Shown here: piece by piece, positions 51,622-62,697 of the stretch | Layout: the number at the start of each line of letters is the position of its first letter | How positions within the stretch are numbered: position 1 is the stretch's first letter | Origin: Rhizobium sp. Q54 | GTDB taxonomy: Bacteria > Pseudomonadota > Alphaproteobacteria > Rhizobiales > Xanthobacteraceae | DNA: 64,000 bases | Direction of reading: 5' to 3' | Assembly: GCA_945861265.1 (NCBI GenBank) | Contig: CAMAUC010000001.1 | Location: 62,001-126,000, forward strand | Translations under genes and position numbers: made by a program | The notes under the pieces: model-generated | Seen by the model: only the letters and a program-made list of their open reading frames with translations | Told to the model about the DNA's origin: nothing | Databases searched by the model: none

Positions 51622-52833
51622 ATGACACGCGCGGCCGCAACGACCCCAGCCGGACCGTTGGCGGGTCTATCCGTCGTCGAGCTTGGCGACGGCACATCGG
51701 GACCTTATGCCGCCAAGATGCTCGGCGACTTCGGCGCGGAGGTCGTCAAAGTCGAGACCGCGGCCGGCGATTCCACGCGCCGGCGCGGTCCCTTTCCGGA
51801 TGGCCGGCCCGACCCGGAGGCCAGCGGACTCTTTCTCTATCTCAACCTGAACAAATACGGCGTCACGCTGGACCTCAAGACGACCGCCGGCCGCATTGCG
51901 CTCGACCACCTGCTGTCGAACGCCGACATCTTCATTTCCAATCTATCCTCGGAAACGTTGCGGGCCGCCGACATTGGTCCCTTATCACTGCGCGAACGCT
52001 ATCCGAATCTGATCATCACGACGATCTCGCCGTTTGGCTCGACCGGGCCCTGGGCGAACCGCAAAGGCGACGAACTGATCACTTATGCAATGAGCGGCAT
52101 GGCCTACAGCACGCCTGGCATGCCTGACGCTTCCGACGATCTCGAACGCGAGCCGCCGCTACATCCCGCCGCCAACGTCAACGAAACAATCGCCGGTCTC
52201 GTGGCCGCCACGGCGACCCTAACCGCGGTCTTCGGCCGCAGCCGGACCGGTGAAGGCTGCCACGTCGAGGTGAGCCAGCAGGCCGCGCTTGCCGCCATGC
52301 AGATCCGGGACATCACTACGGCTTCGTTCACCGGCGAACGCTACAACCGCCTGCTCAATCCAATGACCATCGGTCGAATGCCGAATTTCTATGTGCCGTG
52401 CAAGGACGGCTACGTCACCGTCGCCGCGCCGATGGACATTCATTGGGAGCGGCTGGTCGAGGCCATGGGCAAGCCGGACTGGGCGCTGTCCAAGGATTAC
52501 GCGACGGGCGCGGCGCGCACGGTCAACTGGGTCGCGCTGCGGCTGAAGATCATCGAATGGACCATGAAGCTGACCGGCGACGAGTTGCACGCCATTGCGG
52601 AAGAGATGCAGTTGCCGATGTTTCCGTTCTATTCAATTCGCAAGGTCGCCGATTGTGAACAGGTCCGCGAGCGGCGAAGCCTGGTCGATGTCGACATTGG
52701 CGGCAAACGCGCGCGGATGCCGGGCGCGCCCTTCGCGCTGCGCAAATCGCCCTGGCAACTCCGCCGTCCGGCGCCGCGGCTCGGCGAACACAACGAGATG
52801 CTGCTGGGCCAGCTTGCCGGAGCCACATCGTAA
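51622..52833 (+). CDS. CaiB/BaiF CoA-transferase family subunit 1 (catalytic Asp replaced)
   Basis: The 403-residue protein is a family III CoA-transferase homologue: PLAGLSVVELGDGTSGPYAAKMLGDFGAEVVKVE, LDLKTTAGRIAL and ISPFGSTGPWANRKGDEL. In active members an aspartate in a segment like GEGQxIDxS forms the acyl anhydride. Here the segment reads RTGEGCHVEVSQQAAL, with glutamate at that place. It lies directly upstream of a second family member that keeps the aspartate, overlapping it by one base. Together they look like a heteromeric CoA-transferase that activates the imported acid. Confidence 0.87.
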   Translation: MTRAAATTPAGPLAGLSVVELGDGTSGPYAAKMLGDFGAEVVKVETAAGDSTRRRGPFPDGRPDPEASGLFLYLNLNKYGVTLDLKTTAGRIALDHLLSNADIFISNLSSETLRAADIGPLSLRERYPNLIITTISPFGSTGPWANRKGDELITYAMSGMAYSTPGMPDASDDLEREPPLHPAANVNETIAGLVAATATLTAVFGRSRTGEGCHVEVSQQAALAAMQIRDITTASFTGERYNRLLNPMTIGRMPNFYVPCKDGYVTVAAPMDIHWERLVEAMGKPDWALSKDYATGAARTVNWVALRLKIIEWTMKLTGDELHAIAEEMQLPMFPFYSIRKVADCEQVRERRSLVDVDIGGKRARMPGAPFALRKSPWQLRRPAPRLGEHNEMLLGQLAGATS

Positions 52834-54053
52834 TGAAAACGGCAAAGCCGCTCCCGCTCGAAGGCATCCGGGTCATGGACCTCGGACAATTTATCGCCAT
52901 GCCTTTCTGCACGCTCTGGCTGGCCTGGCTCGGCGCCGAAGTCATCGTGGTCGAATCCCGGAAGCGTTCGACGGCGCGCACGGCGCCGCCTTTCGCCGAG
53001 GGACACGACCGCGATTTCAACGCCAGCGGTTATTTCAACTTCCTCAACGCCGGCAAGAAGAGTTGCGCGGTCGACATGACCACGGCGGCGGGGCGGGACA
53101 TCGTGCGCCAGCTGGCCGGCAAAGTTGATGTCGTGGTCGATAATTTCTCCACCGGAGTCCTGGAAAAGCTCGGTCTCGGATACGAGTCGATCGTCAAGCT
53201 GCATCCCACCGTGATCATGGCGTCGAACGGCGCATTCGGCCGTACCGGGCCGATGCGCAATTCCCGTGGACTGCACAGCGCGGTCAACCTGTTCAGCGGC
53301 GTCGCCGACGTCACCGGCTACGATGGCGGCCACCCCCGTATCCTCGGCGGCGTGATACCCGATCCGTTGAGCGGCACCTACTCGAACTTCGCCATTCTCG
53401 CCGCCCTCCATCATCGCAACCGTACCGGCGAAGGCCAGTTCATCGACCTGGCGATGTATGAGGCGATGATGACGCTCATTCCCGAGGCGGTGATCGACTA
53501 CACGCTCAACGGCGTCGAGCCGGAACGCGTCGGCAGCCGCGACAGCATGAAGGCGCCGCACGGTATCTATCGTTGCAAGGACGATGACACCTGGCTGGCC
53601 CTGAGCGTCGCCAGCGACGAAGAATGGATGGCGCTGTGCGGCGTGGCGCAGCGGCCGGAATGGGCCGCCGACGCCCGCTTCAAGACCGCCGATGCGCGGC
53701 AGAAGAATGTCGCCGCGCTCGATCTGGCGGTCGAAGGCTGGACGCGCGGCCAGCAGGTTCACGCCGCGACCGATGCGCTGCAAGCGGCCAGCGTGGCGGC
53801 GGGGCCGGTGCTGCGCATCGACGAATTGCTCGACGACGCACAGCTCAATGAACGCGGCCTCGTCATCACCACCGATCACCCCGTGGTCGGCAAGAGGTGC
53901 CAACTGGGCATTCCCTGGCGAATGGACAGCCTTGGCATCAATTATCAGCACGCGCCGCTTGTCGGCGAGCACACCCACCAGACGTTGACGGAGCTGATCG
54001 GCATTGACGCGGCAACCTATGCCCGCCTCGAAGCCGACGGCGTCCTGGCGTGA
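52833..54053 (+). CDS. CaiB/BaiF CoA-transferase family subunit 2 (catalytic Asp present)
   Basis: The 406-residue protein has the family III CoA-transferase opening PLEGIRVMDLGQFIAMPFC, VDMTTAAGRDIVRQL and NGAFGRTGPMRNSRGLHSAV. The expected catalytic aspartate is in RTGEGQFIDLAMYEAMM. Such enzymes move CoA from a donor such as succinyl-CoA to a carboxylic acid without ATP. It starts on the last base of the preceding paralogue's stop (TAATG) and is probably translated with it. Benzylsuccinate CoA-transferase BbsEF is a known case of two such subunits. Confidence 0.9.
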   Translation: MKTAKPLPLEGIRVMDLGQFIAMPFCTLWLAWLGAEVIVVESRKRSTARTAPPFAEGHDRDFNASGYFNFLNAGKKSCAVDMTTAAGRDIVRQLAGKVDVVVDNFSTGVLEKLGLGYESIVKLHPTVIMASNGAFGRTGPMRNSRGLHSAVNLFSGVADVTGYDGGHPRILGGVIPDPLSGTYSNFAILAALHHRNRTGEGQFIDLAMYEAMMTLIPEAVIDYTLNGVEPERVGSRDSMKAPHGIYRCKDDDTWLALSVASDEEWMALCGVAQRPEWAADARFKTADARQKNVAALDLAVEGWTRGQQVHAATDALQAASVAAGPVLRIDELLDDAQLNERGLVITTDHPVVGKRCQLGIPWRMDSLGINYQHAPLVGEHTHQTLTELIGIDAATYARLEADGVLA

Positions 54054-54068
54054 CCACAGCGAGCAGGC

Positions 54069-55244
54069 ATGGACTTTAAACTGACGGCCGAAGAACAGGC
54101 GTTCCGCCTTGAGGTGCAGGACTTCCTGCGCCGCGAGCTGACTCCAAACATCTGGCTGGCGCATCGCGACCCGACCGAGCAAGGCATGTGGACCGCCGAT
54201 TTCACCAAGGCGTTCCGCCGCAAGCTTGGCGCCGCCGGCTATATCGGCATGGGCTGGCCGAAGGAATATGGCGGTGGCGGCCGCAACCGGATCTATCAGA
54301 CGATCCTCTGGGACGAGATGGAGTATCACCGCGCGCCAGGCATCGACCGCTCTGTAACCTACATCCCGAATGCCGTCATTGCCTTCGGCTCGGATGCGCA
54401 GAAGGCCGAGTTCCTGCCGAAGATGGTGCGCGGTGAACTGTCTTGGTTCGTCGGCTATTCCGAACCGGAAGCCGGCTCCGATCTCGCCAATCTGAAGACA
54501 AAGGCGGTGGAAGACGGCGACTATTTCGTCATTACCGGCCAGAAGGCGTTCTCTAGCGACGCACATATGGCCGACTATGGCTGGGTCGCCACGCGCACCG
54601 ACGCGACATCGACGAAGCATCATGGCCTGACCATGTTTATCGTCGACATGACCCTGCCCGGCGTCACCGTCAGCGAGTACCCGACATTGGCGGGCTGGAC
54701 CCACCACGCCGTGCACTTCGACAATGTCCGCGTTCACAAGTCGATGATGGTCGGCGCCCGCGACCAGGGCTGGAAAGTCGTCATGGGGGCGATCGACTAT
54801 GAGCGCGGTGCCCTCGCCAGCGCCGGGCTCGTCAATTATCAGCTTGATCGCCTGCTGGCCTGGTGCGCGCAGCCGCGCGAAGGAGCCGCGCCTCTGCTCG
54901 ACGATCCTGTCGTGCGCGACGAACTGGTTCGGCTGGCAATCGAAGCTGAAACCGCGAAGCTCGCGAGCTATTGGCTGGCCTCGCTCAGCGCCAAAGGTCT
55001 GCGACCGCAACACGAAAGCTCGGTCGCCCTGCTGGTAAAGCGCGAGACCTCGCGCAAATTCGACGCCGCCGGCCTGGAACTGCTCGGCCAGTTCGCGCCG
55101 CTGCGCGCTGGGTCGCCGGCCGTCGCACTGGCCGGCGAGGTCGAGGTCGAATACCGCGATCATTTGTACTTCCAGTTTGCCGCTGGCGGCTTCGACATCA
55201 CCCGCAACGTGGTCGCAACGCGCGGCCTCGGCCTGCCTCGATAA
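54069..55244 (+). CDS. Acyl-CoA dehydrogenase, putative catalytic subunit of a heteromer
   Basis: The 391-residue flavoprotein has the acyl-CoA dehydrogenase fold: FKLTAEEQAFRLEVQDFLRRE, WFVGYSEPEAGSDLANLKT and GLTMFIVDMTLPGV. The C-terminal site that holds the catalytic glutamate in medium-chain enzymes (IYEGT) reads QFAAGGFDITRN, so that base is missing. Glu245 in AIDYERGALASAG occupies the alternative position used by isovaleryl-CoA dehydrogenase and the steroid-type FadE26/ChsE4 subunit. It is followed 12 bases later by a second, more degenerate homologue, which suggests an alpha2beta2 enzyme. Confidence 0.9.
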   Translation: MDFKLTAEEQAFRLEVQDFLRRELTPNIWLAHRDPTEQGMWTADFTKAFRRKLGAAGYIGMGWPKEYGGGGRNRIYQTILWDEMEYHRAPGIDRSVTYIPNAVIAFGSDAQKAEFLPKMVRGELSWFVGYSEPEAGSDLANLKTKAVEDGDYFVITGQKAFSSDAHMADYGWVATRTDATSTKHHGLTMFIVDMTLPGVTVSEYPTLAGWTHHAVHFDNVRVHKSMMVGARDQGWKVVMGAIDYERGALASAGLVNYQLDRLLAWCAQPREGAAPLLDDPVVRDELVRLAIEAETAKLASYWLASLSAKGLRPQHESSVALLVKRETSRKFDAAGLELLGQFAPLRAGSPAVALAGEVEVEYRDHLYFQFAAGGFDITRNVVATRGLGLPR

Positions 55245-55256
55245 GCGGAATACAAC

Positions 55257-56435
55257 ATGGATATCTCACTCGATAGCGACCAGCAGATGCTGCATGAGAC
55301 GGCCGTCACCTTCGCGGCCAATGTCATGACGCCGGCGCGCATCCGCGAGCTGGAAGAGACCGACGCCGGCTTCGATGCTTCGGTTTGGAAGCAGATCGCC
55401 GAGATGGGCTGGGCCGGTGCGCTGTTCCCCGAGCAATATGGTGGCTCTGAAGCAAGCGCCGTTGAACTGGCCCTGGTGGTGGAAGCGCTCGGCCAGGGTG
55501 CGATCCCGAACCCGCTGTTCTCGACGGTGATCGAGGCCGGCCTGCTGTTGCTCGACGCCGGATCGCCGATCCAGCGCGAGACCTACCTGCCCCGTATTGC
55601 TTCCGGTGACGCCATCCTGACGACCGCGATCCTCGAAGCATCCGGCGGCCTGCGTCCGCAGGAGATCCGAACGACGATCACGAAGGCCGGCAACGGCTTC
55701 ACTATCAACGGCACCAAGCTGTTCGTGCGCGACGCCTCGACCGCCGAGGTAATCATCGTCGCCGGACGCACCGGTGACGAAGCCGAGGACGTGACGCTCC
55801 TCATCGTGCCGCAGAATGCGCCAGGCCTGACATTGCGCCGCATGCCCGCTTCCGGCGGCGAGTCTCTGTGGCAAGCAACATTCGACAACGTAATGGTCGA
55901 TTCCGACGCGCTGGTTGGCGACGACGGCAACGCCTGGGCCGCCATTGCGCGGCTGCAGTTGCGCGGCGCGGCCTTCAAATCGGCCGAACTGGTCGGCATC
56001 GGCCAGGCATCGCTCGACCTCACCGTCACCTATGCCAAGACACGCGAGCAATTCGGCGGGCCGATCGGCCGGTTTCAAGGCGTGCACCATCACTGCGCGG
56101 AAATCTATCGCGATCTGCAGGTCAGCCGCCTGCTGGTCTGGCAGGCGGCGGCGTCGCTCGGAGAAGGTTTAGCCGGCAGCCGCGAAGTGTCGATGGCCAA
56201 GGCGAAGTGCAGCGACGCGATGCCGGCGGCGACGCGCATCGCACACCAGATCCACGGCGCCATCGCCTATTACCGCGACTATCCGCTGGAGCTCTACTAT
56301 CACCGCGCGATCGCGGCCCAGGCCGCCTATGGCGACGCCGGCCATCATCGCCGCGTCCTGTCCGAACTCATGCGTACCGATCTTGATGGATTCCGGGGAG
56401 ACAATCGACATGACCTACCAGTTCATTACTTCTGA
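55257..56435 (+). CDS. Acyl-CoA dehydrogenase homologue, putative non-catalytic partner
   Basis: The 392-residue protein is an acyl-CoA dehydrogenase family member with SLDSDQQMLHETAVTFAANV, EMGWAGALFPEQYGGSEASA, YAKTREQFGGPIGRFQGVHH and QIHGAIAYYRDYPLELYYHR. Neither of the two known positions for the catalytic glutamate carries one: the C-terminal site reads AQAAYGDAGHHRR and the internal site RLQLRGAAFKSA. It is likely to be the structural or FAD-sharing partner of the preceding protein. Its 3' end overlaps the crotonase gene by 26 bases. Confidence 0.88.
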   Translation: MDISLDSDQQMLHETAVTFAANVMTPARIRELEETDAGFDASVWKQIAEMGWAGALFPEQYGGSEASAVELALVVEALGQGAIPNPLFSTVIEAGLLLLDAGSPIQRETYLPRIASGDAILTTAILEASGGLRPQEIRTTITKAGNGFTINGTKLFVRDASTAEVIIVAGRTGDEAEDVTLLIVPQNAPGLTLRRMPASGGESLWQATFDNVMVDSDALVGDDGNAWAAIARLQLRGAAFKSAELVGIGQASLDLTVTYAKTREQFGGPIGRFQGVHHHCAEIYRDLQVSRLLVWQAAASLGEGLAGSREVSMAKAKCSDAMPAATRIAHQIHGAIAYYRDYPLELYYHRAIAAQAAYGDAGHHRRVLSELMRTDLDGFRGDNRHDLPVHYF

Positions 56436-57225
56436 CCAGGGCGACGACGGCATCGTCCTCGTCACCATCAACGATCCTCGCGCGAAAAACGCGGTCAACT
56501 GGGAAATGAATCAGGAGATGATCCGCGAGTTCGACCGGATCGAAAAAGATCCGAAAGCGCGGGTGATGATCATCACCGGCTCGGGGCGGATTTTCTGCTC
56601 CGGCGGCAACATCAAGCGCATGACCGCCGAGGGCAAATCGCTGGAGCCACCGGACCCGACCTTGCGCGAAGAGCTTTATCCGCAGGAAGCTGACATCCGC
56701 CGCGTCGTCACCGGACTGCGCCGCATGTCCAAGCCGGCCATCGCCGCGGTGAACGGCCCGGCGATCGGCTCCGGCATCGGCATCGCCGCAGGCTGCGACG
56801 TGCGAATCGCCTCGTCCGCATCGCGCTTCGGCTGGGTGTTTGTGCGCCGCGGCATCGTGCCCGACGACGCCAGCCTGGCCTTGATGCCGCAGATCATCGG
56901 CTACGCCAAAGCCTACGAGTGGGGCGTCACCGGCCGCACCATCGACGCGCAGGGCGCGCTCAAAATCGGCTTTGTCAGCGAAGTCGTCGAGCCGGACCAG
57001 TTGATCTCGCATTGCCGGACGCTGGCGCTCGAGATCATCGAAAACTGCCCGCCGCTCACGGTACAGGCCTTCAAGCTGTCGCTGGCGGAATCGATGTACC
57101 AGGATCTCGACACGGCGGTGCGCTTCACAGAACGCGCGCAACGCGTCGTCCGCGCCTCCGCCGATCACGCCGAAGCCCTGAAGGCCTATGCGGAAAAGCG
57201 CAAGCCCACCTGGAAGGGCATATAG
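56410..57225 (+). CDS. Enoyl-CoA hydratase/isomerase (crotonase) family protein
   Basis: The 271-residue protein starts at MTYQFITSDQGDDG with GGGGAGA nine bases upstream, inside the end of the preceding gene. Crotonase features are FCSGGNIKRM for the first oxyanion-hole loop, AIAAVNGPAIGSGIGIAAGCD for the second, and MPQIIGYAKAYEWGVTGRTI. The two glutamates of classical hydratases are absent (GSGIGIA and FVRRGIVPDDAS at those places). Hydration is therefore unlikely. Isomerisation, hydrolysis or C-C cleavage, perhaps using the aspartates of PDDAS, are alternatives. Confidence 0.88.
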   Translation: MTYQFITSDQGDDGIVLVTINDPRAKNAVNWEMNQEMIREFDRIEKDPKARVMIITGSGRIFCSGGNIKRMTAEGKSLEPPDPTLREELYPQEADIRRVVTGLRRMSKPAIAAVNGPAIGSGIGIAAGCDVRIASSASRFGWVFVRRGIVPDDASLALMPQIIGYAKAYEWGVTGRTIDAQGALKIGFVSEVVEPDQLISHCRTLALEIIENCPPLTVQAFKLSLAESMYQDLDTAVRFTERAQRVVRASADHAEALKAYAEKRKPTWKGI

Positions 57226-57228
57226 CCA

Positions 57229-57951
57229 ATGACGCGCCGGGCCCTGGAGCCGACGGATTACCCGTTCTTCGACTACCGACGCTTCACGTTTTCGCTCGGC
57301 ATTGCCGCCGCGGGCCAGGTCTGGCTGTCCGGCAGCACCGCCGCGCGCTTCGACCCGCCACGCAAGACGATGGTTGTGACCGGCGATCTCGTCGCCCAGG
57401 CCGGCCTGATCTACGACAAAATGGCAAAGACGCTGGCGGCCGATAGCCTCGGCCTCGAGAACGTCACCCGCATGACGCAATATATAACTCCGGCGGCGAT
57501 TGCCGATCTGCCCAAGCTCGATGCGCTACGCCGCTCAGCCTTCGGCGACGCGGCGCCGGTCGTCAGCACCGTCGTGATCAAGAGCCTGCTGCGCAGCGAA
57601 GCCCTGATCGAGATCGAAGGCATCGCATCCACCGCAAACCGCCCGCCGCCGGTCGTCATCGCCGCGGCGTTCGGCGATCCGGCGGCCGGCGGCATTGTCG
57701 AGCAATGCCGCGACGCCTATGTGCAAATTGCCGCAGCGCTTAAGAATGCCGGCAGCAATCTCGATGCCGTGGTCAAGACCACGGAGTTCATCACGCCCGA
57801 AGCACTCGCCGATTACCGGCACACCGCCGAGGTCCGGAAAGCGGTGTTCGCGACGCCCTACCCGGCCGCAACCGGCGTAATCAGCGACAGACTGTCCCGA
57901 CCAGGTGCGCTGATCTCGGTCGAAGCCATAGCGTTAGCGAGGAGCGAATGA
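57229..57951 (+). CDS. Tandem RidA (YjgF/YER057c) domain protein
   Basis: The 240-residue protein holds two RidA-like domains, about residues 15-120 and 135-238. The ends ALIEIEGIAS and ALISVEAIAL mark the matching last strands. RidA enzymes are normally ~130-residue trimers that hydrolyse reactive enamines or imines with an arginine before the last strand. In both repeats that position seems not to be arginine (PVVSTVVIKSLL and YPAATGVISDRL). It is translationally coupled to the next gene (ATGA). It may bind an enol or enamine intermediate, or be catalytically different. Confidence 0.85.
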   Translation: MTRRALEPTDYPFFDYRRFTFSLGIAAAGQVWLSGSTAARFDPPRKTMVVTGDLVAQAGLIYDKMAKTLAADSLGLENVTRMTQYITPAAIADLPKLDALRRSAFGDAAPVVSTVVIKSLLRSEALIEIEGIASTANRPPPVVIAAAFGDPAAGGIVEQCRDAYVQIAAALKNAGSNLDAVVKTTEFITPEALADYRHTAEVRKAVFATPYPAATGVISDRLSRPGALISVEAIALARSE

Positions 57952-58436
57952 GCGGACGCATCACCGCCGAGGTGAAAGCCTGTATCGGCCGCCAGGTCAG
58001 CTACACCGCCCCGGAGGAGCTCGGGCGCAGCGCCATCCGATATTTCGCGCTCGCGCTCGGCGACGACAGCCCGCTCTATCGCGACCCGGAAGCCGCTGCG
58101 AAGACCGTGCACGGCGGTATCGTCGCACCGCCAACCTTGGTGTGCGAGACCAATCAGATCATCCAGCAGCCGCTCGACGAGAACGGCTATATCGGACACC
58201 ACTGGACGCTGCCGTTGCCCAACACGCGCTTTATCCGCGGCGGCAATGAATATGAATTTCATCAACCGACACGGCCCGACGACCGCATCACGGTGACCTG
58301 GAAGATTCTCGATATATACGAACGCGAGACCCGCAAATTCGGCGCACTTGTATTCGTCGTGTCGGAAGCGCGTTACGTCAATCAGCGCAATGAACTGCTC
58401 GCGATCAATCGCGAAACCAACATTTACTCACCATGA
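57948..58436 (+). CDS. MaoC-like hot-dog protein, putative non-catalytic hydratase subunit
   Basis: The 162-residue protein belongs to the MaoC N-terminal/FAS1-like hydratase group: GRQVSYTAPEELGRSAIRYF, VHGGIVAPPTLVCETNQI and EYEFHQPTRPDDRITVTWKI. The active D-x4-H of R-specific hydratases is altered. LGDDSPLYRDPEAA has tyrosine where histidine is expected. It overlaps the next gene, which keeps the motif, by four bases. The pair resembles HadAB or ChsH1/ChsH2, in which one subunit lacks the catalytic residues. Confidence 0.88.
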   Translation: MSGRITAEVKACIGRQVSYTAPEELGRSAIRYFALALGDDSPLYRDPEAAAKTVHGGIVAPPTLVCETNQIIQQPLDENGYIGHHWTLPLPNTRFIRGGNEYEFHQPTRPDDRITVTWKILDIYERETRKFGALVFVVSEARYVNQRNELLAINRETNIYSP

Positions 58437-58876
58437 CCGCGTCCCGCACAAAATATTTCGAGGAAGTGACGATCGGTGAGACATTGCCGCCGATCGATTT
58501 CGCGGTCACGCTGACGTCGCTGGTGATGTATGCCGGCGCCACCTGGGATTTCCACCGCTACCACTACGACGCCGCTTTCGTGGCCGGCCTCGGCATGCCA
58601 GGGCCGTTCATGGATGGGCAGATGCTCGGCGCGCTGCTGGCGCGGCAGGTTATGCAATGGAGCGGCCCGGACGGATTCGTCCGGAAGCTGAGCTATCGCC
58701 AGCGCGCGATGGTCTATGCCAACGACACCATCACGCTGCGCGGCAAGGTCACCGGTACCTCGATCCAGGACGGGCGCGGCCTGGCGCATTGCATGCTGTC
58801 TGTCACAGGTCCCGACGAACGCGTTGTCGCACGCGACGCCACCGCCACCGTTGAACTGCAACGGCGGCCGGGGTGA
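58433..58876 (+). CDS. MaoC-like (R)-hydratase, putative catalytic subunit
   Basis: The 147-residue hot-dog protein keeps the hydratase dyad in GATWDFHRYHYDAAFV (Asp and His four residues apart), followed by GPFMDGQMLGALLARQV. It probably adds water across the trans-2-enoyl-CoA produced by the acyl-CoA dehydrogenase pair, acting as a heterodimer with the preceding protein. It is the last gene of this long plus-strand operon and converges on the alcohol dehydrogenase gene with three bases between the stops. Confidence 0.88.
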   Translation: MTASRTKYFEEVTIGETLPPIDFAVTLTSLVMYAGATWDFHRYHYDAAFVAGLGMPGPFMDGQMLGALLARQVMQWSGPDGFVRKLSYRQRAMVYANDTITLRGKVTGTSIQDGRGLAHCMLSVTGPDERVVARDATATVELQRRPG

Positions 58877-58879
58877 TCG

Positions 58880-59908
58880 CTATGGCAGCAGCACGATCCG
58901 CCCGACCACCGCATTGTCTTCCACTAGGCGATGGGCTTCAGCGGCCTGCTCCAGCGGCATCGTGCGATCGACCATCGGCTTCACAGAGCCGGCGGCCACC
59001 ATCCGCAACACCATTTCGAGCTGGCGGCGCGACGTACTCACCGCGCTGCGGATCTGCAGGCCACGCCGGTAGATCGTTGCGATGTCGATATCGACCGGCT
59101 TCCCGGTCACTTCTCCCACCAGCACGATACGGCCGCCTGGCACCATTGAGCGCCGGATCTCATGAAACACCGCGCCGCCGACCGTATCAATCGCGACGTC
59201 GACACCGCGCCCACCCGACGCATCGCGCACGCCTCCGGCAAAGCGCCCGTCCGGCGCAACCACCACTTTGTGCGCGCCGGCTTCGGTCAGCGCCGGTTCC
59301 TTGCCGGGCGACCGCGTCGACGCAATCACAAAGGCGCCAGCCGCCCGCGCGATTTGAACCGCATGCATGCCAAGCCCGCCGGCGCCCGTTACCAGCACGC
59401 GCTCGGCCTGCTTCACCTGACCGGTGTCGCACACCGCATTGTACGACGTCCCCACCGCACAGGCGACGATCGCTCCCGTTGGGAAATCGATTACGTCCGA
59501 CAGCTTCGCAAGATTGTCATCGCCGATCACGACATATTCGGCATATCCGCCCATTGCGTCCTGGCCCAGAAATCGCAAATCGGCGCACAACGTTTCACGA
59601 TCGGTCCGGCACATCGAACAGCAACCGCAAACATATTCACGCTGCGTGGAACAGACGCGATCGCCGATCGCGAAGCCGCGCGCGTCCGGTCCGAGCGCGG
59701 CAACTTCACCAGCGATTTCATGACCGAGCACAAGCGGTGATGCGAAGCTGCGTTGCGCCGGGCTGCGTCGGATTAGGATATCGCGACGGCACACGCCGCA
59801 TGCGCGAACACGCACGAGCACCTGACGGCCGCGCGGCTCCGGCCGTTCGATATCCTGCAGCGAAAGCCCTTCAGGTCCACCATGCGCGCTCACGACAACT
59901 GCTTTCAC
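58880..59908 (-). CDS. Zinc-dependent medium-chain alcohol dehydrogenase
   Basis: The 342-residue protein starts at a GTG (MKAVVVSAHGGPEG) with GAGG six bases upstream. The ORF track begins 18 codons earlier. Catalytic zinc ligands are in RACGVCRRDIL and VLGHEIAGEVAAL. The structural zinc cysteines are in YVCGCCSMCRTDRETLC. The NAD(P) motif is VTGAGGLGMHAVQIARAAGA. It could oxidise the hydroxyacyl product of hydration or another pathway alcohol. It is transcribed against both flanking operons and is divergent from the HMGS-like gene. Confidence 0.9.
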   Translation of the reverse strand: MKAVVVSAHGGPEGLSLQDIERPEPRGRQVLVRVRACGVCRRDILIRRSPAQRSFASPLVLGHEIAGEVAALGPDARGFAIGDRVCSTQREYVCGCCSMCRTDRETLCADLRFLGQDAMGGYAEYVVIGDDNLAKLSDVIDFPTGAIVACAVGTSYNAVCDTGQVKQAERVLVTGAGGLGMHAVQIARAAGAFVIASTRSPGKEPALTEAGAHKVVVAPDGRFAGGVRDASGGRGVDVAIDTVGGAVFHEIRRSMVPGGRIVLVGEVTGKPVDIDIATIYRRGLQIRSAVSTSRRQLEMVLRMVAAGSVKPMVDRTMPLEQAAEAHRLVEDNAVVGRIVLLP

Positions 59909-60041
59909 GTCCGACCTCGCTTGTAGAAACACTGAACGATCGCACCGACGGCGCTTGCGCAAAACAAAGCATGTCGACGCGCACGTTTCAAATTATCTTT
60001 TCAAACATGCACATCACTTGCTGGCGAGCGGAGTCGGTTGA

Positions 60042-61490
60042 ATGACATTCGGCATTCTCGCATGCGGCGCTTACATTCCGCGGCTTCGCCTGGCGCGGCG
60101 CGTCATCGCGGAAGCGAACAGCTGGATCAATCCCTCGTTGAAAGGCCAGGCCAAGGGCGAACGCGCGATCTGCAATTGGGATGAGGACTCCGTCACGATG
60201 GCGGTCGCCGCCGGCCGCGACGCGCTTGCTGCGCACGATCGCACCGCCGTCACTGCTCTGTATATCGCTTCCACCACGTTGCCGTTTCTCGACCGCCTGA
60301 ATGCCGGCATTGTCGGCGAGGCCTTGACGCTTCCGCCTGGCGCGCAGGCGCTCGACATCGGTGGCAGCCAACGCGCCGGCACCTCCGCATTGAGCAACGC
60401 GCTGAACAACGCCGGCCAGACCCTTGTCGTGGCGACCGAGAACCGCAGCGCCAGGGCGGCCAGCCCGGCCGAGATGATTTCCGGCGATGCCGCCGCCGCC
60501 ATATTGGTTGGTGAAGGCAATCCGCTTGCGCGGCTGGTCGCCAGCGCGACCCAAACGGCGGATTTCGTCGATCACTACCGCACGATCGAGTCGGAGTACG
60601 ATTATTCGTGGGAAGAGCGCTGGGTGCGCGACACCGGCTATATGGCGATCATCCCGCCCTTGATAACGCGCTGCCTCGCAAGCGCAGGGTTGACGCCTGC
60701 CGACGTTTCCCATTTCTGTTTGCCGACCGCCTTGCCGCGGGTCGCCAATGCTGTCGCCAAGGCGGCGGGCATCGCGGACGCGGCCGTTGCCGACAACCTA
60801 CACGCCGGCTGCGGCGACACTGGCGCGGCGCATGCACTGTTGATGCTGGTCTCGGCGCTGGAGCGCGCCAAGCCCGGCGAGCGCATTCTTGCCGTCGGCT
60901 TCGGCCAGGGCGCCGATGTTCTGCTTTTCGAGGTTATGGCGGCCATGCCCGCCATCGCCGGACGCCTCGGCGTCAGCGGCCATTTGACGCGCCGCCGCGA
61001 AGAAACGAACTACACCAAATTCCTCGCCTTCAACGATAACATCGAAATCGAGCGTGGCATGCGCGCCGAGACCGACAAACTGACGCCGCTGTCGGCGCTG
61101 TGGCGCAACCATGAGACCGTCACCGCCTTCATCGGCGGCAAATGCGAAACCTGCGGCACGCTTCAATTCCCCAAAAGCCGCATCTGCGTCAATCCGAACT
61201 GCAATGCCGTCGACACGCAGCAGCCGCATCCCTTCGCCGACACGATCGGCCGCATCAATTCGTACACCGCCGACCGCCTGACCTACTCGCCGGATCCACC
61301 GGCCTGCTACGGCATGATCCAGTTCGACGGCGGCGGCCGCTGGATGATGGACTTCACCGATGTCGAGCCGGACGCCCTCACCGTCGGCACGGCGATGCAG
61401 ATGACGTTCCGCATCAAGGACATCGACGCCCAGCGCGGCTTCCGCCGCTATTTCTGGAAAGCTGCTCCGTCAAACGCAGAGAGTAAATGA
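60042..61490 (+). CDS. HMG-CoA synthase-like protein fused to a DUF35 (Zn-ribbon/OB-fold) domain
   Basis: The 482-residue protein has an HMG-CoA synthase-type thiolase fold (residues ~1-330; FGILACGAYIPRLRLAR, GDTGAAHALLMLVSALE, VGFGQGADVLLFE). The C-terminal DUF35 domain has the zinc ribbon CETCGTLQFPKSRICVNPNC and an OB fold. Aligned by eye with archaeal enzymes, the catalytic Glu is Thr78 (YIASTTLP), the Cys is Gln110 (GGSQRAGT) and the His region reads FCLPTALP. All three catalytic residues seem lost. It is followed by a thiolase gene two bases downstream. DUF35 proteins bridge thiolase partners, so it may be a structural or altered-activity component of such a complex. Confidence 0.85.
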   Translation: MTFGILACGAYIPRLRLARRVIAEANSWINPSLKGQAKGERAICNWDEDSVTMAVAAGRDALAAHDRTAVTALYIASTTLPFLDRLNAGIVGEALTLPPGAQALDIGGSQRAGTSALSNALNNAGQTLVVATENRSARAASPAEMISGDAAAAILVGEGNPLARLVASATQTADFVDHYRTIESEYDYSWEERWVRDTGYMAIIPPLITRCLASAGLTPADVSHFCLPTALPRVANAVAKAAGIADAAVADNLHAGCGDTGAAHALLMLVSALERAKPGERILAVGFGQGADVLLFEVMAAMPAIAGRLGVSGHLTRRREETNYTKFLAFNDNIEIERGMRAETDKLTPLSALWRNHETVTAFIGGKCETCGTLQFPKSRICVNPNCNAVDTQQPHPFADTIGRINSYTADRLTYSPDPPACYGMIQFDGGGRWMMDFTDVEPDALTVGTAMQMTFRIKDIDAQRGFRRYFWKAAPSNAESK

Positions 61491-61491
61491 G

Positions 61492-62697
61492 ATGCCACAA
61501 GGAATCCGCGACAAGGTCGCCATCGTCGGAATGGGCTGCTCGAAGTTCGGCGAGCGCTGGGACATGGAAGCCAGCGATCTGATGGTCGAGGCCTATAGCG
61601 AGGCCATCGCCGATGCCGGCATCGAAACCAGGCAGATCGACGCCGCCTGGCTGGCGACCGCCATTGAAGAGCAGCATGTCGGAAAATCGGCGGTGCCATT
61701 GGCGACCGCGTTGCGGCTCCCCTACATTCCGGTCACGCGTGTCGAGAATTTCTGCGCCAGCGGCACCGAGGCGTTTCGCGGCGCGGTCTATGCCGTCGCC
61801 TCGGGCGCGGCGGACATCGCGCTCGCACTCGGCGTCGAAAAGCTGAAGGACACCGGCTATGGCGGCCTGCCGCAGCGCGGCCGCGGCACGCTGAACAACA
61901 TGACGTGGCCGAACCTGTCGGCGCCGGGCAGCTTCGCTCAACTGGCCGCCGCTTACCGCGCCAAGCATGACATCACCGCGGCCGACCTTAAGCAGTCGAT
62001 GGCGCATATTTCGGTCAAGAGCCACGACAACGGCGCCCGCAATCCAAAGGCGCACCTGCGTAATCGCATCACCATCGATACCGTGCTGAAGGCACCGATG
62101 ATCGCAGAGCCGCTCGGCCTTTACGACTGCTGCGGCGTCAGCGACGGCGCCGCCTGCGCCATCGTCACCACGCCGGACATCGCCCGCGGCCTCGGCAAAC
62201 ACGATCTGATTTCCGTCAAGGCCATTCAACTGGCCGTATCGAACGGCCAGGAAGCGCAGCACAATTCATGGGACGGCAGCTATTTCGCCACCACGCGCAT
62301 CGCGGCGACCCGCGCCTACCACGAAGCCGGCATTCAGAAGCCGCGCGATGAAATTGGCCTGATCGAAGTGCATGATTGCTTCTCCGTCACCGAACTTGTG
62401 ACCATGGAAGACCTTCACATATCGCCGGAGGGCGGCGCCATCCGCGACGTCCTCGATGGCTTCTACGACGCCGCCGGCACCATTCCCTGCCAGATCGACG
62501 GCGGCCTGAAATGCTTCGGTCACCCGATCGGCGCATCGGGCCTGCGCATGATCTACGAAATGTACTTGCAGATGCTCGGACGCGCCGGCGAGCGGCAGCG
62601 CAGCGACCTTCCCCGTATCGGACTGACTCACAACCTTGGCGGATTCCCGCACCAGAACGTCTGTTCGATTTCGATCGTCGGACATCTCGGCACATAG
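61492..62697 (+). CDS. SCP2-type thiolase/acetyl-CoA acetyltransferase family protein
   Basis: The 401-residue thiolase-fold protein keeps the nucleophilic cysteine in RVENFCASGTEAF, the HDCF segment (IEVHDCFSVTELV) and GLKCFGHPIGASGL. The second thiolase cysteine is replaced by THNLGGFPHQN, as in SCP2-type thiolases and the Ltp2-like aldolases. It may cleave a 3-oxoacyl-CoA or act as a retro-aldolase on a 3-hydroxyacyl-CoA. The adjacent DUF35 fusion is the expected partner for either type. It begins two bases after that gene's stop. Confidence 0.9.
   Translation: MPQGIRDKVAIVGMGCSKFGERWDMEASDLMVEAYSEAIADAGIETRQIDAAWLATAIEEQHVGKSAVPLATALRLPYIPVTRVENFCASGTEAFRGAVYAVASGAADIALALGVEKLKDTGYGGLPQRGRGTLNNMTWPNLSAPGSFAQLAAAYRAKHDITAADLKQSMAHISVKSHDNGARNPKAHLRNRITIDTVLKAPMIAEPLGLYDCCGVSDGAACAIVTTPDIARGLGKHDLISVKAIQLAVSNGQEAQHNSWDGSYFATTRIAATRAYHEAGIQKPRDEIGLIEVHDCFSVTELVTMEDLHISPEGGAIRDVLDGFYDAAGTIPCQIDGGLKCFGHPIGASGLRMIYEMYLQMLGRAGERQRSDLPRIGLTHNLGGFPHQNVCSISIVGHLGT

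Follow-up and report, generated by a model that had tools for sequence, protein, structure and literature searches.

Background

In the PhlABC complex, the HMG-CoA synthase (HMGS)-like subunit PhlA lacks the active Cys and Glu, catalytic residues occur only in the thiolase-like subunit PhlC, and activity requires all three proteins (PMC6392133). PhlB bridges the PhlA and PhlC dimers, a single cavity runs through all three proteins, and the architecture is kept even though the CoA-binding residues are absent (PMC6392133). The archaeal HMGS, in contrast, is an active enzyme that retains Glu82 and Cys114 (PMC6392133), and the archaeal enzyme linked to DUF35 has a shared CoA site at the subunit interface (cited in PMC6392133, PMC12329534). 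DUF35 also serves catabolism, where it docks on enzymes of the SCP2-thiolase fold in ChsH2/Ltp2, Shy/Sal and BbsA/BbsB (PMC12329534).

In this work, we analysed a 64,000-nucleotide stretch of Rhizobium sp. Q54 (GenBank assembly GCA_945861265.1, contig CAMAUC010000001.1, positions 62,001 to 126,000 of the forward strand), hereafter the window, whose numbering is used for all coordinates. It carries a gene that fuses an HMGS-like domain to DUF35 and that directly precedes a thiolase gene. We assessed the catalytic residues, the partner thiolase, the operon and the relatives of this fusion, and we propose a role for it.

Architecture of the fusion protein

The fusion gene occupies positions 60042-61490 of the plus strand as a 482-codon open reading frame (482 aa), with the coordinates, strand and length given in the initial annotation. 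Its TGA stop codon (61488-61490) is separated by one base from the ATG of the thiolase gene at 61492. Residues 1 to about 340 (60042-61061, plus strand, the C-terminal limit being approximate) match HMGS/KAS III profiles and form an HMGS/KAS III-like domain in the profiles, the AF2 model and the Foldseek results. Residues 345-482 (61074-61487, plus strand) constitute the DUF35 domain, i.e. a zinc ribbon and an OB fold, with Pfam zf-ChsH2 and OB_ChsH2_C scoring above cut-off over residues 363-457; this part matches 6esq_E and PhlB. Both dedicated HMGS models score below their family thresholds (PRK04262, 154.7 bits for a cut-off of 244; TIGR00748, 91.3 bits for a cut-off of 353), and among the models matched in this analysis no NCBIfam or Pfam model covers the whole fusion. 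Database names for the family are 'HMG-CoA synthase', 'OB-fold protein' and 'KAS III C-terminal domain protein'.

The four-cysteine zinc ribbon, which the initial annotation had described as intact, is indeed present (C368, C371, C382 and C387, i.e. C-x2-C-x10-C-x4-C), its last spacing being x4 versus the usual x2. These cysteines are kept in about 89-98 % of relatives; they are mostly gone in 11 of 108 fusions (L016, L021, L085, L093, L098, L115, L118, L120-L123), all of which are still fused.

The AF2 model of the fusion, built with 46 relatives in the alignment, reached a mean pLDDT of 90.8. The top PDB folds retrieved by Foldseek were those of PhlA (9skh_C, 5mg5_A; TM 0.84 by target length), together with the archaeal HMGS 6esq (6esq_J; TMt 0.87, 2.5 A), while the MucABC subunits ranked after both; model and search thus agree on an HMGS fold.

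Loss of the catalytic triad

The Glu-Cys-His triad had been read by eye as replaced by Thr78, Gln110 and a residue of the motif FCLP. Alignment to solved structures, including archaeal HMGS of known structure, which had been proposed as a check, places exactly Thr78 (60273-60275) and Gln110 (60369-60371) in the columns of the catalytic Glu and Cys, and Pro228 (60723-60725; all three codons on the plus strand), the last residue of F225-C226-L227-P228, in that of the catalytic His. The KAS III-like Asn position is D259. The alignment is sound because the positive controls are intact at the same columns: the HMGS of M. thermolithotrophicus, the MvaS of Melissococcus and a Methylobacterium HMGS carry Glu, Cys and His there, and the FabH of the same genome carries Cys, His and Asn. 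Misalignment of the triad is thereby ruled out.

The replacement extends across the relatives. Among 108 aligned fusions, a set obtained partly from a peptide-pattern scan, neither the Cys nor the Glu is found in any sequence, and the His is found in three (L021, L114 and L115). Thr occupies the Glu position in 101 of them, Pro the His position in 85 and Gln the Cys position in 79; the latter is otherwise Leu, Thr, Arg, Ala, Pro, Met, Gly or Ser (28 fusions) or a gap (one), and the Asn is likewise not kept. The same picture was obtained in 54 relatives from a whole-genome search, a less biased sample used as cross-check. Loss of the triad is a family trait and not a matter of chance.

A Cys/His pair relocated to other positions of the domain appears to be contradicted by the family alignment, in which the synthase-like domain has no invariant Cys or His (H178 is conserved at 82 %, H264 at 75 %, H224 at 71 % and C44 at 68 %). 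With the triad residues lost and no such invariant residue, it is very unlikely, judging from the aligned sequences, that the domain works by HMGS chemistry. An active HMGS with an unusual active site, serving a mevalonate or leucine-related route, might be suggested by the records that annotate a hydroxymethylglutaryl-CoA synthase and by the 155-bit match to PRK04262; this score being under the 244-bit cut-off, Cys and Glu being missing in all 108 fusions and the operon context being catabolic, we regard such an enzyme as scarcely conceivable. Nor did the search of the genome for a second intact HMGS yield one: all other HMGS-profile matches fall below cut-off, and the strongest of them (C32), the one inspected, is an ordinary FabH of 325 aa.

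The initial annotation had also left room for a decarboxylase, since KSQ domains carry Gln in place of the active Cys. Under this explanation Gln110 would stabilise an enolate, and a malonyl-type thioester would be decarboxylated and passed to the thiolase. Gln is in fact found more often than any other residue at the Cys position, but it is replaced by one of eight other residues in more than a quarter of the fusions, in which the thiolase is still intact. KSQ decarboxylation furthermore requires its His residues, whereas here the catalytic His is almost always absent, the Asn is not kept, and no carrier protein or carboxylase is annotated beside the gene in the neighbourhoods examined. This half of the earlier proposal did not hold: because the Gln is variable and the His gone, KSQ decarboxylation is disfavoured, and we consider it highly improbable.

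The synthase-like domain does contain strongly conserved polar motifs, i.e. W46-D47-E48-D49, R111, D174...R180 and E191-x-R193-W194-x-R196. They could form a new active site with a reaction of its own (hydrolysis, aldol or retro-Claisen cleavage) beside the thiolase, with R111, D174, R180, R193 and D47-E48-D49 as candidate groups, along with C44 and H178, which are near-invariant only among the closest 46 relatives. However, family-wide conservation of these last two drops to the percentages given above, D47-E48-D49 and R180 are found in intact HMGS and in PhlA too and therefore need not be new catalytic groups, and PhlA offers a precedent for a non-catalytic role. We therefore judge an altered catalyst unlikely.

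Partner thiolase

The product of the downstream gene (61492-62697, plus strand) matches NCBIfam PRK06157 with 688 bits for a cut-off of 403, which bears out its initial assignment as an SCP2-type thiolase. Its motifs are intact, namely the nucleophilic Cys88, HDCF at 294-297 (H294-D-C296-F) and GHP at 343-345 (G-H344-P), and Cys88, His294, Cys296 and His344 are conserved in 107-108 of 108 partners. Wherever both genes could be read (106 loci; at several loci without a detected thiolase the sequence ends near the fusion gene), thiolase and fusion lie on the same strand, at a distance of 150 bp or less in 94 cases. The thiolase is better conserved than the fusion at 104 of these loci, with mean identities of 74 % versus 55 %. 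Gene order is reversed in the haloarchaeal plasmid loci examined, where the thiolase lies upstream of the fusion. The core of our argument is this contrast: the thiolase site is fully preserved and the synthase site fully lost, with the two genes kept side by side.

Genomic context

The same operon comprises, on the plus strand, genes for a family III CoA-transferase of the CaiB type (52833-54053), two acyl-CoA dehydrogenases (54069-55244 and 55257-56435), an enoyl-CoA hydratase/isomerase (56413-57225) and, according to profiles, two MaoC/FAS1-type hydratases (57948-58436 and 58433-58876). These genes are those expected of a beta-oxidation-like route terminating in a thiolase. Oligopeptide-type ABC transport genes lie nearby. 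Between the hydratase genes, the plus strand encodes a protein of 240 aa (57229-57951) that contains two Rid/YjgF (Ribonuc_L-PSP) stretches, an unusual component inside a CoA-ester operon. A zinc alcohol dehydrogenase/reductase gene (58880-59962) lies on the opposite, minus strand amid the plus-strand genes; its homologue is on the plus strand in L040 and on the minus strand in L027.

Neighbours of the relatives include an SDR dehydrogenase, a MaoC hydratase, an acyl-CoA dehydrogenase (ACAD), and a CoA-transferase or CoA ligase, and the substrate probably differs between relatives. Novosphingobium sp. ES2-1 has a homologue on its plasmid p3 (L111; 31 % identity) that has also lost the triad. 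The genes around it are arranged as P450, OB-fold protein, lipid-transfer protein, enoyl-CoA hydratases, thiolase, fusion, SDR and ACAD, and the same arrangement is seen in the edc estrogen operon of Novosphingobium (Caenibius) tardaugens. In the latter cluster, EGO55_13555, annotated 'HMG-CoA synthase', adjoins an acetyl-CoA acyltransferase, a 3-hydroxyacyl-CoA dehydrogenase and an acyl-CoA dehydrogenase; it is a distant member, for which triad loss was read in the ES2-1 gene of the same order. This protein was published with no step in estrogen degradation assigned to it (Ibero et al., PMC7793797), and a subunit of the adjacent thiolase would be a direct, testable answer.

Other neighbourhoods were also observed. 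On Rhodococcus and Mycobacterium avium plasmids (L109, L110 and L159), a divergent fusion and its thiolase belong to a conserved plasmid cluster that further encodes an AMP-binding CoA ligase, a ring-hydroxylating dioxygenase and three enoyl-CoA hydratases. On Haladaptatus plasmids (L113 and L114), the thiolase and an HMGS-DUF35 fusion lie beside two UbiD decarboxylases, L113 also having a benzoate-CoA ligase gene, so that these loci possibly act in aromatic acid degradation. Genes for HpcH/HpaI-type CoA ester lyases are found repeatedly in the vicinity of the fusion and its thiolase, in sphingomonads and in one Porticoccaceae MAG (L098, L115, L160 and L060).

Selection and phylogeny

Compared with its closest relative (L024, 96 % identical), the fusion has a dN/dS of 0.128 for the synthase-like part and 0.065 for DUF35, the thiolase having 0.051: selection on the fusion is purifying. 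A pseudogene is ruled out by this dN/dS of 0.13 and by long open frames across the class. The family is present in Alpha-, Beta- and Gammaproteobacteria, Actinomycetota and haloarchaea. A long match of the fusion type was obtained in 64 of the 385 genomes sampled from the window's class, including genomes of 1.3-1.4 Mb; four further matches in this sample are either weak or both short and non-fused.

In the test tree, all 27 fusions group in a single clade (100/98), with PhlA outside it. Without FabH, all triad-less forms cluster together (97/88); when the long-branched FabH is included, PhlA clusters with intact HMGS (99/90). Whether the triad was lost once, together with PhlA, or separately thus depends on the outgroup.

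Proposed role

We propose, with a probability of roughly 0.7, that the dead HMGS-like domain and DUF35 form a non-catalytic subunit similar to PhlA plus PhlB, which complexes with the downstream thiolase and walls its active site. A single chain would do the job of PhlA and PhlB, or that of HMGS and DUF35 in the archaeal complex, and would associate stably with the thiolase encoded directly downstream. DUF35 would act as a clamp on the thiolase. The dead synthase domain, located at the mouth of the thiolase active site, would complete and shape the acyl-CoA pocket and stabilise the oligomer. All covalent chemistry would be left to the thiolase (Cys88, His294/Cys296 and His344), whose step would be thiolytic C-C cleavage of a 3-ketoacyl-CoA, the last one in the beta-oxidation-like operon, the starting compound being presumably a bulky or branched carboxylic acid. 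We infer the physical complex, the role in the pocket and the direction of the thiolase reaction from precedent and comparative evidence, by which the platform reading appears well supported. The initial annotation had already suggested that the synthase may have become a platform, and this part of its proposal gains from the PhlA precedent, the family-wide loss and the intact thiolase; the PhlABC parallel and the loss across a large family go beyond what it contained.

Three points weigh on the other side. The HMGS-DUF35 chain is fused, whereas PhlABC consists of three free subunits; most zinc-ribbon cysteines are missing in the 11 relatives mentioned above; and the conserved polar motifs could mean more than scaffolding, e.g. 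CoA or substrate binding. One could imagine the dead domain as a regulatory or CoA-buffering subunit that binds acyl-CoA and gates the thiolase allosterically, with no shaping of the pocket. The shared interface CoA site of the archaeal DUF35-linked enzyme (cited in PMC6392133, PMC12329534) agrees with this; but PhlABC keeps its architecture without CoA-binding residues (PMC6392133) and gating has no direct support, so we find it quite improbable. A bolder version of the thiolase-subunit proposal, tentative and on balance doubtful, makes the fused pseudo-synthase an obligate active-site partner that alters its thiolase: the complex would carry out a non-standard C-C cleavage, with R111, D174-R180 and R193-W194 of the dead domain binding the substrate and so standing in for the active site it has lost. 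An example would be a cyclic or branched beta-dicarbonyl acyl-CoA undergoing retro-Claisen cleavage, cf. the unusual acyl transfer of PhlC.

Comparison with known complexes

The best match in both sequence and fold is PhlA plus PhlB of PhlABC (PpATase, a Friedel-Crafts acylase; PDB 5M3K, 5MG5, 9SKH). As in PhlABC, an HMGS-like part without the active Cys and Glu is associated with a four-Cys DUF35, and a thiolase-like partner with an active Cys is encoded alongside. The replacement residues differ, i.e. Cys/Gly/Gln in PhlA, whose aligned sequence has Gln in the His column, versus Thr/Gln/Pro in the fusion. PhlABC is made of separate subunits, whereas the HMGS-like and DUF35 parts are here one chain; it serves the biosynthesis of an antibiotic, next to a type III PKS, whereas the fusion lies in a beta-oxidation operon; and it performs CoA-independent Friedel-Crafts acyl transfer, whereas the operon context of the fusion argues for catabolic thiolysis as the predicted reaction.

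The archaeal acetoacetyl-CoA thiolase/HMGS/DUF35 complex (PDB 6ESQ, 6ET9) has the same three modules and fold but, unlike the fusion, consists of separate subunits with an active HMGS in the mevalonate pathway. MucABC of Streptococcus macacae (PDB 9VBO, 9VBT), an acyltransferase per its entry title, combines a thiolase-like subunit with an HMGS-like subunit in which Cys is changed to Glu and Glu to Cys; its subunits are separate and share 20-21 % identity with the fusion. On a Priestia megaterium plasmid (L153, 3992-6770), we also observed a stand-alone, triad-less, PhlA-like HMGS homologue, a thiolase and a zinc-ribbon protein beside an NRPS; these three proteins probably constitute a Phl/Muc-like acyltransferase within a natural product cluster of a Gram-positive bacterium. 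In ChsH2/Ltp2, Shy/Sal and BbsA/BbsB, DUF35 is free or fused to a MaoC hydratase, and here it is fused to an HMGS-like domain.

Compared with these thiolase, DUF35 and HMGS-like complexes, the present system is new in being fused, catabolic and widespread, no such description having been found in the open-access literature searched. Reading the family as pseudo-synthase subunits would avert false mevalonate or condensation assignments, and would add a fused catabolic case to the few complexes that keep an inactive synthase as a structural partner.
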